64,000 bases of DNA, from assembly GCA_946699065.1 (NCBI GenBank), contig CAMPDV010000005.1, positions 248,001 to 312,000 on the forward strand, in the 5' to 3' direction. Position 1 is the first letter of the stretch, and each line of letters starts with the position of its first letter. Below the pieces are notes generated by a model. The model had not been told where the DNA came from, did no database searches, and saw only the letters and a program-made list of their open reading frames with translations. The DNA comes from Loxodes magnus (taxonomy: Eukaryota > Ciliophora > Karyorelictea > Loxodida > Loxodidae). Made by a program: the position numbers and the translations under genes. This document shows, in pieces, positions 7,348 to 45,498 of this stretch.

Positions 7348-8838
7348 AACAATATTGCTTATACTTTTCACATTACACAACAATTTACAAGAAAGGATCA
7401 GTTCTAACTCAATTTGCTCATCTTTAATATTATATAATAAAACTTAACTTTGAAGTCATCTTTTCTTATTCAAACTGTTAAAGTTGGAATAAGAATGAAT
7501 TATTATTTTCTCTTTTATGTTATTCCATTATTTGATTCCTAATTTTAATACCTTAATAACTCTAAATACCTTTTTCCTTATAAAGGCTTATTTTTAAAAA
7601 ATTTAGATACTTGTATAAATAAGGCAAACTCGTTTGTCTTGATTTACAAGCTGTGTTATTGTAAGACTTTCTTCGAATTAGTTTCAAGCTTCTACTATGA
7701 ATTGATTTATAAGGATTTTTTTGCTTCTTATTTTGAATGTAGAATATAGATTGATATTGCAGAAATTTAATTTGATGTTCTCATAGTAGAGTATATATTT
7801 AGACTAATTGGCTTGATTTAGTTCATAAGATGGTAAAAAATATCTCATTACCCTATGATAATAAGCCTATTATGTCTGCAATTAGATTCTAGTTAATCTT
7901 AGGAAGAGTTTCCAATATTAATCACTACCTATATTGTCTTACCTTCTTAATTTAGAGTAAACCTTTCAGTCCTTACTTAAAGATATGATTTTAGCTATTC
8001 TAGATTAGATAATTTAAACAATATCAGCTCGTCTTTTAAAGGCAACAGACTGAGATACAAATATAACTTTCTAGATTTATAAGAGTTTCCTTGATTAGTG
8101 GCTATTCTTAATTTACTGGAGGATAGCAAAAGATTGAGATAAATGAGAGGTATAATAGTATCTTTTTGGAGATAAATACAATTAATTAGCTCTAAAGGTA
8201 TTTTAAGCTTGGAGTATTAAAGAAGATTTACTAATGTATACATTTGTTGTTTACAGGGAATTCTTATAAGTTAAGTTTATTTACTTTCAAAGAAAAATAA
8301 TTATACACTCAATGGGTTTAAAAGCTTATACTTTATTTTGTTCTAGCTTAGAGTTAAAAATAGGAAAGGAAAGATTATTGCATTTTATTATCGGAAGCTA
8401 AGCATTAAATGAAATAATACGCAAAATGCATATAGTGATATTATCTCATTTAATTCTAGATTTATATTCAGTTTGGTAACATAATGCTAAGCGAAATCAT
8501 TTTGAGCAAATATTACTTTTAAGATAAAAATATTCAAATTTAAACTAGAAAAAGCTAGGATTCTATTTATCTATTAGCCTAAACTTCCTGCCCCAAAACA
8601 AAATAGCATCAAGCATCTAGTTGTAAGAAGATAATGTTCTTATCATAGTCAATTAAATCAACATGATATAGATTATAACGTCAGAATATACTCTTAACAA
8701 AATCTGTTCGTTTGATAAATTAGAAAAAGATAGAAATACAGGTTAATTTTAACTTAAGGATTCAGATTATAGATGTAGCTACTATAATAATGAATATATA
8801 TATAATAATTTTATAAAAACATTAATTATGCTTCATTA
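7348..8838. other. AT-rich intergenic stretch
   Basis: No motif or supported gene seen on either strand. It ends at the stop of the AMP deaminase gene. Confidence 0.45.
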
Positions 8839-11800
8839 TCATTCCTCAGGTAATTTTTTGCTGTTATTCTAAAGAAAATCATGAGCTTCATTGAATAAAG
8901 TAATTCGATAATTCCACCTTATGTTACTATACTTATTTTTGGAGATGTCGTTACTCTCTAGCGTTCCTTACCAATAAGTTTCACCTAATCATTTTTACTT
9001 TTCTTCAAAACTAAAACCTGATTGAATGACTGAATTCTAAGCAATTTCACACAAATCAACCATGCTTAGTCTAAAGCCACTTTTGGCAATACAATATTCC
9101 TCTAGCAATGGATCTTTTGTCATATGGAAATTTAAAGGATCATTCGTTGATAGTGAAACATTCATACCTCTTTTGAAGAACTTAGAAAAAGGATTTTCTT
9201 CATATATTATATGAAGTTCAGTATTTGACTGAGGAGCAACAGCTATTCCTATCTAATTCAAGTAATAGAGATACTATAATACTTAGTTTTCATGAAGAAC
9301 AAGTCCATGGTTTATAGAATGCGCAGTCATATAAGCAGCTATTAGATGATCTGGAGATCCACTCTCTCCACAATGAGGTCGGAAGCTAAAAATGTTCATA
9401 TTTTTATTGACTCTTAATCAATTTATTGCTTAAATATTAGCATACAGGTAGTAAATATAATAAGCATAAGGTGGATTTTCAGCTTCTGTTCATTCATCTG
9501 GCTTAACATCATAAATGTTGGGATATGAAAAAACTTCCTCACTGATATTTTCATCGTTAATCGTATCAAATCCTGCTATTTGAGCAAGTAATTCATTTAA
9601 TTCTTAATTTTGTTCAGGATATATGGTAGCCTCTATAACTGGAATAAAAATATTATTTAGCATTTCCTAGAAATTATTCAGAAAGTTCTTTTCCCTATAA
9701 ATTTTAAATATTCTAGGAATCTGAACGATTCATTACACTTTCTTATTACTCATTTAGTAAGTTTTAAACCACTACGCTAAGTTTTGCCAATTGTCTGCTT
9801 TATACCCAAAAATGTTAACTCGTAGTTCAACATGTGAATACTTTGTTTTTTCCAGTCCTTCGAAGACTTCTTTAGTTATCTCAGCTAGATATCTACCTTA
9901 AAAGAAATTATCATAACTAAGAAAAATTTGTCTTAATATTGCTTAATTTAAGGGATTGTATTTATTTCCAAACAAATCGAATCTATTATTTTGATCAACA
10001 TCAGTATAAGCATCGAGAATGCTCACGTTTATCGTTTTTTCATTGAAGCCTAAACAGTTTGCAATTTCCCTAAGTGATTTAATATTTCCACTCTCTTCAC
10101 ACACAATAGTATCATTTTCTTATAATAGCTTTTACTTAATAAAATTACAAAGATGCTTCAAATTCATGCACGATGATAGTTGTACAAAGTTATCCACTTT
10201 TCTTATATTATAAAAATCTCTTTCAGGTACCAACTTCAATTCTTAGCATTCTAAGTCATTGTTATACATTTTGTGTAGCTTAAACCTAAGGCATTATTCT
10301 TAGTTTTTTTAGTGGCAAAAAGTAGAAAAGAAAGGATTATTTATTATTTTTTTTAGAGTTCTATAGTCACTTCAAAATTTATCGATGCTTGGTATATCTA
10401 GCTCCATATCTTTACCATTAGAATCGGAGAAAACAACAACTCCGTTTTCAAATCTATAATAACTACAATTTTCCATCTCTTCTAGTTTTTAGAAATATTT
10501 TATATCATGGCAGAATCTTCCAAAGAAAAGAGGATGAGGCATAAAGTTGGCATGTCAATAGATATAGCTATTTCTTAGCTTAATAAGAATATTTAGTGTT
10601 GTACACATATTTGATAACTCTTATTAGTCTTAATCATAAATTTCATTTATTTCAATCTTTGTTATGTAATCCATAAGCTTTTTCGACTTAATCTCCCATA
10701 TCTACTCTTGAGTTAATTCCAATTACTAAAATAATGAAACTTACTTTTCTTTTGAATTGGCTTTTCTTTAATTTTGTATTCAAATTCAAATTGTGTTTAG
10801 CGAATTAGCAGACTTGTTACCCTATTTCTTAGATTTTTTTTAGGTTTTTTAGCATTTCTTTTTTAACATTTTTGATCTTCGCTTAAGCTTTTTCTTTGGC
10901 AAGTTTAGGCGTTAACATTTAATATTGTTCCGGCTCAGTTTTCTCTTCCTCTTTTTTGACTTACTCTACTTGCTAGATATAAATAATAGGAGGTTATTCT
11001 TATTTTACTTTTTTTTATTGTTCTTATTTTATTTCTTGAGCTTGCTTTACTTCAGATTATTAAGAAGGAATTCGGGGAAATTGCTGGTTTATTTTATTAG
11101 GAAATAGCTTTTCATAGAGAAATTGCTGAATAGGATTATTCTTTAGCAGAAGTTCAATTACTTTTCTGAAATTACAACTTACCTTTTATCACTTTCTGTA
11201 AACTGGTCGAGTTTTACTTGATTAGCCTAGTTTAAATCAACAGAATTTTGTCTACTATTTTTTGTCTTTTTTGTAGGTTGAAGTTGTGGATTATCTATCA
11301 TCAGTGTATGTTTCCTTTCCACAATTTCTTACTAAACTTATTTAATAGAATTCTAAAATATCTGCTCAAAATCACTGTTTTGAGTGAAAAAATTAGTTCT
11401 CTATTGTTTTAAATTTTTTTATATCTTTTTTTCGTTTTCTATTTACTTCTTTAAGTTTGACATTATATTCTCATAACGCTTTTATTGAATCATCTCATCC
11501 TAAAAATTTTAAGATCTGCAGGATTTATTTTCAAATGAAATTTCTGAATGTTCTCCAGCCATATCAGATCGTATGGATTACCACATTGTTTCTGTTTATG
11601 ACTTTTACTGGTTTATGATTGACTACTATTTCAGCATTTCCTCCTATAAATTTGCATTTTATTTCTGAGCACTTTAGATTTGCTATTCTAAGAAACTACA
11701 CTCTTCCTATAAGTTTTCTTTTTTTAATTTCAGCTTATCATATGAAACTTAAGCTTCTTTACAAAGCTGATCTAGTTTAAGTGCATTGTTTCTAGTTTCG

Positions 11801-12628: not shown

Positions 12629-13096
12629 TCAATAATATAGAAATTGGTTTATTTCTTTATTTAGAAGCTTAGATATTATTAATTATTTCAAGTAACTACT
12701 TAGTGTCACTAAAACTTATTTAAGCTTATATTGTTAATAAAAAACGCATAACCATACTGATAGTTCGTTTTCTTCTGTCCATTTTACTCGATGCTTCAGA
12801 TTTTTTGGTATATTAATGTAGTCTCCTTTAGTCATTTTAACCTCCTTGTCTTGAAATTAAAGTATTGCATTTCCTGATAAAAGCATTACAAACTCATTCT
12901 CATTTTGGTCATACCAAAAATCAGGATCTGAAGTATGTCCTTTAGATACTATCCTTTCAATTCTGATTTTAGAAGTATTTGCTTCTAATATTGATTAAAC
13001 AAGCTCTTAAGGAAGAGTAGTTGGAATATCCTAAAAGATATTAGCAGTTTAAGCTTAATTTAGTTCCATTTTATTACCTATAAACATCTCTTCCAT
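12629..13096 (-). CDS. Small cupin protein of bacterial type
   Basis: A single-domain cupin of about 120-155 aa. The order of motifs is that of the small bacterial cupins: RIERIVSKGHTSDPDFWYDQ, ENEFVMLLSGNAILQFQD, MTKGDYINIPKNLKHRV and WTEENELSVWLC. The His and Glu ligands of the metal-binding barrel (G-H-x-S, E-x-E, H in the second motif) are present. Substrate unknown. The start is the first of three in-frame ATGs (13096; also 13087 and 13069). Family members end about at the motif VWLCVFY. Here TAA 12736-12734 follows directly and the first in-frame TGA is only at 12631-12629, giving 35 extra residues (see findings). It may be an old acquisition from bacteria. Function beyond cupin is not inferable. 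Confidence 0.85.
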
Positions 13097-13193
13097 CCTA
13101 TCACTATATGAATGCTCTATCCTTAGTCTCTAATATTTAAACTACTTTAAGCTTTCTATCTTTATAGTTTTTTTATAGAGTAAGGACTAAGCA
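13097..13193. other. Short intergenic stretch
   Basis: Nothing recognised. Confidence 0.4.
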
Positions 13194-13787: not shown

Positions 13788-14732
13788 ATGATTTATCAAT
13801 AAGGTAAATCTTAACTATCAAAGATAGAGTTCTATGATAAGTTTGTTGATGATTGATTGCAAATATCTAAATTAGATTCAGAAATAGAGAACTTCATCAG
13901 CTTCTAGAAGTATTTTCTACTCTGAACTGAAGATAAAAAAGAAATCAAAACTAGAATTATGTCTAACAGATTTTGTCCCTATTGTTATAGCTAAATGTCT
14001 AAGTAGAAGCGAGTCTTTAAGAATAGCACTAGACTGATTATGCATTATTATTACATTCACTCATTGGATTATAGCGTTTATTTCGATATCAGATTCGAAC
14101 ATCTTGTTATCATCCTAGTTAGATAGCCTGAAACTTCTATTGTAAAAAGCTAATTTTGAAAAGTGAATAACATAGAGTAGACTGTACATGATGAAATATC
14201 AAAGCTATGCTACACTTAGAAAAAGTGAAATACAAGTGCTTTATAAAAGCTGTAGCAGCTGTTTGAGGAACAGATAAAAACTTTCTTCATTTCTATTTCT
14301 TAGACGAAATAGCAAGAGGAAGTATATGAAAATTTGATTACTAACCATCCCTTTATCAACCAGAATAATTAAATGACAGAGCCTTAGTTTTACTAGTGAA
14401 AGCCTTATAGATAGATGTCAGTTATTAAAGATTTCATTGATATTAGTAAAAAGGAGAAAGATTTTTATCAGTATTGAAATGAATATAAGAACTAATGGGA
14501 GAATTAAGCCTAAGGATATATCAAAAAGAAATGAGCTTTGATGTGTTAAGGGTTCTTAAAAGCATATGAGAACTAGATAAAAATTTACCTATAAGAACCT
14601 TTTAGGAACCACATTCTGTATTTTTTCAGTGAACGGTTTATCAATTAGAAACAATATTAAAGCTTACTTAGAGATTTGAACAAAGTAGTCAACTCAAAAG
14701 ATATGCCTTCTACTGTGGAAATAACTGAATGA
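13788..14732 (+). CDS. SUZ12: SUZ12-like VEFS-box Polycomb (PRC2) subunit
   Basis: The 314-aa product has the core architecture of the PRC2 subunit that holds the H3K27 methyltransferase. A C2H2 zinc finger lies at residues 63-91 (C63, C66, H86, H91; motif FCPYCYS then MHYYYIH). The VEFS box spans about 195-300, starting PQFYQWKPYRQM and DFIDISKKEKDFYQYWNEY. These align with the plant EMF2/SUZ12 order QFYHS-QPM, DFVDV-EK and the WN motif, followed by the ACEAF/LH-like helix. It is much shorter than animal SUZ12 (about 740 aa), lacking the N-terminal region. Seven of eight Trp codons are TGA (W23, W46, W124, W147, W204, W230, W249); only W237 is TGG. The stop is taken as TGA 14730-14732; the frame stays open for long beyond it. 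Single exon. Confidence 0.82.
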
Positions 14733-18430: not shown

Positions 18431-19759
18431 TCAAATGTTTTCTATGTTTTGAACGTCTAGCGTCTAATTGGCAATATTATAGCTTTCATTAGTCTAATTC
18501 AAAGCAAAAGGTAAAGTTACATCACTTTGAAGTATCGTACTGCTTTAATGCTAATCCTGCTCATTATCTTAAGAAGCTTGTACTTGAAAATCAGTTTAAT
18601 TTAAATAATTTCTTTTACAAATACAGCAGCATGTGTTATTCTGAAATCAGATATCAATGCAGTTCTTATGATAAATGTGTCTACAAGGCAATTTTCTAAT
18701 TTGATCGTTTTATATAAACATATCTAAGCATATGACACACTATGACTAGACTAATTTCTTTTAGCTCTGCTCTTTATAGATCAATATTGGGAAATTCTAA
18801 GAAATCTAAAGTTGCTAGATTTAATTATTTGCTTAATTATCTTCCTACTAAGTAGTATGAACCCTAGTTATTATGTGCTTTCTAATATAGTAAAATATGC
18901 AAATTAGTAGTACGAAGATACTTATTGAAATGACTAAAAGTATTATGAAGAAGTATTAAACTGTCTTTCCTTCTTTTTTATTTAGCTTAAACTTTATTTT
19001 TAGTCCTGTATCATACTAGTTCTTGTTTTAAATTACGAAATATCAGGTATCAGGTGAGAGAAGTTGCAAATCAATTATTTGTTCAAGTGAAAGAGTAAAG
19101 TAAAATTAATAGTCTAACTCAGAAGGTAAAGCTGATTTCCCATATTTATTAGATTTCACTATTAAGGATAGAAAACTTCCAAAGTTAATTGAATATTCAA
19201 TGCTAAGCTTCATGTTTGCTTCGGCTTCTAAATAGAACCATTATTTCTGGAAAGATGAAATTACTATCTCATATGATTGCTTGCTTTTTATTTTTAATGC
19301 TTGTTTCGTACAATCTTCGTCAATCCATCCTTCATTACATCTACACTTCCCAACACATTAACCTTGCTAATTACAATCTCTAGGACACTTAGAATCCTAG
19401 TTATATGTGAAAGTTATATTATAATTCAAAGGATAGTCACTAAAGTTGATTATAGTGACATATCAATCCTGCTAAAAAGCTAATATTTGCAGAAATAGAT
19501 AATCCTTATGCTGATAATAGCCATTTCAATCTACATTACTATACTACTACAGTTAATAGTTTTGAATCATGTTTTTATTTGCTGCCAAAGCACATGAAAA
19601 ATTTTAATCTAAGACAATCATTTCTACGAAGCAATTCTAGTGATCAAATTGCTAAGATATAAAGAAGTGCTTAAAGGTTGTGTTTTGTTAGATTTTTTAT
19701 GGAACAGCTTAAGAATAAAATTACCTCTATACAAAAGCTAACAAAATTACTCTTCACAT
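18431..19759 (-). CDS. EGF-TM-RING-H2 membrane ubiquitin ligase
   Basis: A 442-aa protein in one exon. Signal peptide: MWRVILLAFV at 1-10, with Trp2 coded by TGA. An extracellular region has an EGF-like module at 125-150 (C125, C129, C135, C139, C141, C150; core GQCVGKCRCNEGW). It is flanked by beta-rich segments such as DWYVTIINFSDYPLNYN and WYFVILN. A transmembrane helix spans about 267-291 (FFIILLVISISIFVLLICIF). A cytosolic RING-H2 finger follows at 341-381: CVICLD, LPCRH, YHKNCIDIWF and CCICK, with ligands C341, C344, C359, H361, H364, C367, C378 and C381. Trp371, the conserved E2-contact position, is TGA. Start and stop (TGA 18433-18431) are fixed by the signal peptide and frame. Inferred to be an E3 ligase that couples a surface or endosomal receptor domain to ubiquitination, like PA-TM-RING proteins but with EGF in place of PA. 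Confidence 0.88.
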
Positions 19760-44289: not shown

Positions 44290-45498
44290 ATGAATCAGAA
44301 CTGCCAAATATATGTAGCTCCTATGGTTGATATCACTAACATCTTCTTTAGGAATTTCTTCAGACTCTTGACTAGAGAGACTGTGCTGTATACTGAAATG
44401 AAGACTGAAGCTTAGTTTAGGGAACTTATTGAGGGTTAAAAGAGATGCAGATTTAGTGAAGAAATAGCTAATTTTTCTTAGGTTGAACATCCAGTTTGTA
44501 TATAGCTTGGTGGGAATAATCCGGAGATACTCGCTAAATGTGCTTAGATAAGTGAATAGTCAGGCTATGATGAAGTCAATTTAAACTGTGGATGTCCTTG
44601 CTAAAAGGTAAAGGGTTTTGGAGCCTATTTGATGCTAAATCCTAAATTGGTAGCAGAAATAGTCTAAGCGATTACATGTAGTACGAAAGTAGCTCTGAGT
44701 GTCAAATGTAGGTTAGGAGTTGATGATAATGACTCTTATGAAGAGCTTTGCTAATTTATCTCTACAGTATAGGAAGCAGGATGCAATAATTTCATAATTC
44801 ATGCTAGGAAAGCTATACTGAATAGTATCAATCCTAAGCAAAACAGAAAAATCCCTCCTCTCAAACCTGAGTGGGTTTTTAAATTATAGCAAGACTTCCC
44901 CACTTTACGCTTCACAATAAATGGAGAAATTCGGACGTTTGAGTAGATAGAGAATTACCTTAAGCAAAATCTGTCCGTAATGATAGGAAGAGCTGCTTTT
45001 AATAACCCATGAATGTTTACAAATATAGACAGATATTTTTACAATAAGCCTAACCCTGGTTTTTCAAGAAGAGAAGTAATGCTCTAATACGCTGAGTTCT
45101 GCTAGGTTTGATAAGATAAATACAATATAAACAATTGTTTTCTAGCGAAACCGATAACTAACATATTTAACGGGGAGCGATGTAATAATAAGTTTAGATA
45201 GTCGCTGAATACCTACAGTTTAGACAGAAATCTAAACATTACACAAGTAGTCTAGAATCTAATAAGCGACATGGAAAGTGTCAATATAGAAGCTTTAGAC
45301 AGAAAACCTCCAGCTTAACTGATAATCTTTTTATTAATTTCTTCAGATTATAATAAACTAGAAAGCTTCATCCCTATCTTTTATATCTTTAGGCTTGAGT
45401 ATTGTCTATGCTTTTTAAAGCTAGAAAGCTATTTATGGCTATACTAGCATCTTATTAAGTTAACATTTAAGATTCTAGATGAAACTACATTTTATTGA
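44290..45498 (+). CDS. tRNA-dihydrouridine(20/20a) synthase, DusA type
   Basis: This flavoprotein reduces U20/U20a in the tRNA D-loop. The TIM-barrel starts at YVAPMVDITNIFFRNFFRL; LYTEM follows, then HPVCIQLGGNNPEILAK. The catalytic motif is VNLNCGCPCQKVKGFGAYLM with the active-site Cys in the CGCP block. Then come VKCRLGVDDNDSYEEL and FIIHARKAILNSINPKQNR, the HARK motif and the Asn-Arg segment typical of the DusA subfamily rather than eukaryotic Dus1-4. Next are FTINGEIRTF and MIGRAAFNNPWMF, where Trp is TGA 45010-45012. The start is ATG 44290. Family members end near the motif ALDRKPPA. Here TAA 45316-45318 follows directly, while the first in-frame TGA is 45496-45498. The true end is therefore uncertain by 60 codons. 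Single exon. Confidence 0.9.

Follow-up and report, generated by a model that had tools for sequence, protein, structure and literature searches.

All three standard stop codons are amino acids within genes of Loxodes magnus

The nuclear code of L. magnus has been described as NCBI translation table 27 with a context-dependent UGA, which its authors term the only stop codon (Seah et al. 2024; PMC11441545). In the portions of that paper available to us, most genes have UGA as the final codon according to their transcript 3′ ends, and sense UGA is depleted over roughly 20 codons ahead of the stop. Swart et al. (2016; PMC4967479) reported the same kind of code together with a poly(A)-proximity model. 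As excerpted, their account has it that the codes of Parduczia sp. and Condylostoma magnum have in common the translation of all 64 codons and context-dependent termination. C. magnum differs in using all three stops, while in Parduczia UGA stood at the expected stop in all transcripts inspected by the authors. A Trp tRNA with a 4-bp anticodon stem in Loxodes is credited to Swart et al. (2023/2024) by two later papers, in the passages available of them.

The window analyzed here, a stretch of 64,000 nucleotides of L. magnus DNA, resembles the published account of this species, as far as the accessible text goes, in reading UAA and UAG as Gln and UGA as Trp or stop, and in its low-GC 3′ regions. 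Unlike in that account, where UGA is the only stop, a few genes here apparently end at TAA (PMC11441545). That all three standard stop codons are amino acids within genes of L. magnus is correct and already known, and we are close to certain that its nuclear code is table 27, the karyorelict code, with the tRNA and eRF1 mechanism described below. A sequence-only reading of the window had proposed table 27 with TGA as Trp and TAA/TAG as Gln, and both the family scores and the published code bear this out; its placement of the DNA near Loxodes agrees with table 27 being the published code of L. magnus.

Sense reading of TGA, TAA and TAG

The gene at 13788-14732 (plus strand) starts with ATG at 13788 and comprises 314 codons up to a terminal TGA at 14730-14732, where the GC content (90 bases) drops from 0.289 before to 0.200 after and the next in-frame TGA lies 188 codons downstream. 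It had been presented as a SUZ12-like gene in which TGA makes up seven of eight Trp codons, and the counts hold: sense TGA occurs at 13854, 13923, 14157, 14226, 14397, 14475, and 14532, the sole TGG at 14496, and 25 in-frame TAA/TAG (12 TAA, 13 TAG) stand beside 4 CAA and 4 CAG. That the gene is SUZ12-like is likely without being certain: it scores 22.0 bits against Pfam VEFS-Box when TGA is taken as Trp, just short of the cut-off of 23, and this match hinges on Trp. None is listed at E up to 1 when TGA is instead replaced by X, C, R, Y, F, Q, S, G, or L, although above E 0.1 most Pfam matches are suppressed by the HMMER filters. The same profile counts against Gln, scoring 23.8 with TAA/TAG as Glu and 22.0 as Gln, and a PDB search with the gene returned no match at E up to 1. 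Since its TGA share of 7/8 lies above that of the other 11 gene segments counted (20/51; P = 0.0075, for one picked gene), this gene is a favorable example.

Under table 11, the entire window contains one closed ORF of at least 150 aa. Codons were counted in 12 gene segments of our own choice (4,639 codons, RING gene excluded), which hold 27 TGA, 32 TGG, 147 TAA, 129 TAG, 77 CAA, and 49 CAG; one of the two TGAs counted in TSNAXIP1 may be its stop. Per 1000 codons, TGA occurs 5.8 times in frame and 22.7 times in the other five frames, while TAA (31.7 in frame, 34.5 off frame) and TAG (27.8 and 21.6) show no such depletion. An unsupervised codon-usage segmentation lost the gene at 13788-14732 and was used only for choosing segments for Pfam. 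The Pfam cut-off was passed by 11 window genes (Rpn13, AMP deaminase (AMPD), cupin, kinase, WW, Dus, PP2C, DEAD helicase, GDI, amino-acid transporter, and RING); besides VEFS, the WD40 gene and TSNAXIP1 fell below it. The sequence-only reading had extended the code to at least 20 recognizable genes. Recognition at the Pfam cut-off extends to these 11; PWP1 had no Pfam match, and the counted segments of Dbp5 and PP2C, like those of Rpn13, cupin, and GDI, contain no in-frame TGA.

When family profiles were scored with alternative residues, TGA scored best as Trp in VEFS, AMP deaminase, Dus, and RING. The AMP deaminase reading frame (8752-10353, minus strand, four sense TGA) gave 585.2 bits with TGA as W, compared with 573.5 for Y, 573.3 for F, 569.2 for C, 568.5 for X, and 568.0 for R. 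For TAA/TAG the order was Q 585.2, K 580.4, E 575.4, X 564.6, L 551.9, and Y 548.2. Dus scored 209.3 bits with W, 205.7 with X, 205.4 with C, and 204.7 with R, and RING_2 reached 44.0 with W and 40.4 with the best of nine alternatives. Other genes were less clear: W was best against Histone for two NF-YC-like genes but tied with Y against CBFD_NFYB_HMF, W and X were nearly equal for PP2C and WW, and in the WD40 gene W scored higher in some families and X in others. WD40 arrays were dropped as an internal TGA/TGG control: where their sequence was read out, TGG encodes almost every WD Trp, with TGA mostly at other columns. On contig C1503, long and nearly identical tandem WD40 repeats extend across several kilobases (L001-L008).

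When TGA was masked as X, blind alignments to the best PDB homologue covered nine TGA columns in five genes. Five of the nine are Trp columns (AMPD 3/4, RING 1/1, the NF-YC-like gene L109 1/1, Dus 0/2, kinase 0/1), and at the remaining four the homologue has Lys (one each in AMPD and the kinase), Phe, or Glu (both in Dus). If Trp is taken to make up 1.3% of residues, the chance of five Trp columns in nine is 4.5e-8. The three AMPD columns are Trp in both full-length PDB homologues. Dbp5, Rpn13, and eRF1 carry no TGA inside their aligned stretches and the cupin gene none at all, so these genes are no test of what TGA means.

Two motifs had been singled out as TGA at invariant Trp positions. In the RING-H2 gene (frame read 18527-18859, minus strand), the motif starts at 18739 and the TGA of CIDIW at 18647-18649 is real and lies at the Trp column. 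Likewise, 45010-45012 (plus strand) is TGA in the Dus frame, within FNNPW; the paralogues L086 and L087, both 49% identical to the window gene, have TGG and TGA at this place. Of the three Dus columns with TGA, this one pairs TGA with TGG and the other two face Ile or Phe. Both NF-YC-like copies keep TGA at the Trp column. On homology, TGA is read as Trp and TAA/TAG as Gln, the Trp reading from family scores, paralogue pairing, and five of nine blind columns, and the Gln reading from the AMPD scores and the Gln-type tRNA cores described below, with VEFS alone placing Glu above Gln.

Termination at TGA and, probably, at TAA

TGA stands at the end of most conserved genes examined. We read the stretches past 31 histone-fold matches, which are all those listed and include two pairs of near-duplicates, and in 30 of the 31 TGA follows in frame with no more than 53 codons intervening, which is weak by itself given how often TGA occurs off frame. 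What carries weight in the histone evidence is the position of TGA at the C-termini of H3 and H2B-type proteins: it follows directly after GERT in five of five canonical H3 genes and stands exactly at the protein end in six H2B-type genes. In AMPD, which ends LPEE-TGA, as well as in eRF1 and Rpn13, TGA lies at most 14 codons from the homologous end, and in PP2C and Dbp5 ∼30 codons past the aligned part. UGA thus also acts as terminator, as the ends of the histone, AMPD, and eRF1 genes indicate. The earlier statement that conserved genes end at TGA describes the rule in the genes read, but it is apparently not universal.

If UGA were the sole terminator, the apparent ends at TAA of the cupin gene, the Dus gene, and the H3 variant L097 would be unexpected. 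We consider it probable, with less confidence than for table 27 itself, that a minority of genes truly terminate at a 3′ UAA, which would make UAA dual as well. The 2022 paper on the karyorelict code reportedly says something similar. The alignment of the cupin gene (12734-13129, minus strand) to its homologue 2opk (112 aa) reaches residue 108 with four residues remaining, and the window gene has one further codon and then TAA (12734-12736). There, GC content falls from 0.322 to 0.211, while at the next in-frame TGA (12629-12631) it goes from 0.189 to 0.222. The Dus gene behaves similarly, with 0.344 to 0.256 at its probable TAA terminator (45316-45318, plus strand) and 0.256 to 0.344 at the next in-frame TGA (45496). 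L097 carries TAA TAA TAA where its paralogue L095 has TGA, and TGA is absent from the remaining 73 codons fetched. In addition, UAA depletion before stops is described for L. magnus in the portions of PMC11441545 at hand. Against termination at UAA, a TGA may be hidden by short introns or assembly errors, the H3 variant L094 has a TGA five codons beyond its TAA, and the Dus paralogues are longer than the window gene. Among the three H3-variant paralogues L094, L095, and L097, the codon at one and the same C-terminal site varies between TAA and TGA.

The cupin gene is the only match to itself in its own genome and is most like bacterial proteins (44-49% identity; best 8 of 48 plasmid records), which makes horizontal transfer possible.

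A code in which TGA is Trp only and another codon terminates, like that of Blepharisma with its UAA/UAG stops, would be in line with the Trp scores of TGA in four families and with the TAA ends of the cupin, Dus, and H3-variant genes. It is very improbable, given that in-frame TAA and TAG are abundant and score as Gln in AMPD, and that TGA follows most of the conserved C-termini examined. Even less credit is due to TGA as stop only (table 6), with the in-frame TGAs as pseudogenes or errors, which would fit the scarcity of TGA in frame and its absence from 5 of the 12 segments but not the family scores in favor of Trp, the TGAs at conserved Trp columns, the one kept in both NF-YC-like copies, or a VEFS frame that is recognizable only with its seven TGAs as Trp.

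Transfer RNAs and eRF1

Under table 27, UAA and UAG would be decoded as Gln by dedicated tRNAs, while at UGA Trp would be inserted by its tRNA(CCA), in which the top pair 27:43 of the anticodon stem is missing. Papers on relatives suggest that such a 4-bp-stem tRNA may read UGA as a near-cognate codon. At a UGA close to the 3′ end of the message, eRF1 would stop translation, aided by the adjacent poly(A) tail; that the 3′-end context is the trigger is likewise suggested by work on relatives.

A 32-base tRNA core with UUA or CUA anticodon, which we take to be of Gln type, has 248 matches in the genome and none in the reversed control. These are known from cores and not as full tRNAs, and 100 of the 248 places were listed; among them, arrays occur also on contigs C214 and C130. 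For the Trp tRNA(CCA), a core with C43 has 124 matches. Position 27 was read in 79 of these, the array copies taken in full (48 on C67, 31 on C148), and is A or U, and since this stands opposite C43 the top anticodon-stem pair is broken, leaving a 4-bp stem. In agreement with this, cmscan flagged the top pair of a C67 copy as non-standard; the D arm is irregular in one C67 copy. The tandem arrays lie at C67:481500-491400 and C148:154500-164400, with spacings of ∼187 and 241 bases. The CCA anticodon and the broken top pair are as in the published 4-bp-stem Trp tRNA, to judge from the available text. One array has the U·C mismatch that is named for C. magnum and Amoebophrya, the other differs from these in having A·C. 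Tandem arrays of dozens of copies were not found described in the accessible parts of the literature on this tRNA.

On C110 are three Trp tRNAs with a 5-bp stem topped by a U-A pair; two have an inserted T-arm base and one has a non-standard T-arm pair. They may well be functional, since their Rfam tRNA scores (60.4, 59.6, and 51.2 bits) are about equal to that of the C67 array form (58.2 bits). A looser Trp pattern gave 327 matches and 76 in the control, and since 100 of the 327 were listed, there may be further Trp tRNAs beyond those read. An initial Trp tRNA pattern was spaced incorrectly; of four of its loci scanned, three were Ser and Arg tRNAs and one contained no tRNA.

The sequence-only reading had called for a search for UUA, CUA, and UCA suppressor tRNAs. 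UUA and CUA cores are present, but no Trp tRNA(UCA) was recognized, with the 4-bp-stem Trp tRNA(CCA) found instead: the UCA pattern gave seven matches to one repeat (one in the control), of which four were checked with ARAGORN and Rfam. This repeat, at L120-L123 and three more places, resembles a tRNA in its 3′ half, carries a TTCA loop, and was not recognized as a tRNA. C. magnum, too, has Gln tRNAs for UAA/UAG and is without a nuclear Trp tRNA(UCA), according to the excerpted text (PMC4967479).

Both eRF1 genes (L010 and L011), ∼35 kb apart on contig C196, keep the GTS and NIKS motifs and have identical unusual stop-recognition residues, namely Ala 55, Arg 58, Gln 60, Ala 70, and Phe 125 in human numbering (second copy read by eye). 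A third PF03463 match (L009) is pelota-like by eye. Tentatively, and with the odds somewhat against it, L. magnus might be without any fully canonical Trp tRNA: the amplified 4-bp-stem tRNA(CCA) would then decode both UGG and UGA, paired with an eRF1 changed at 55, 58, 60, 70, and 125, with UAA as a second context-dependent stop.

In codes without a dedicated stop codon, the position in the message can set termination, and the window is a clean example of this. Beyond the known code, the analysis adds candidate TAA-terminated genes together with a tRNA and eRF1 inventory for tests of how sense is distinguished from stop.
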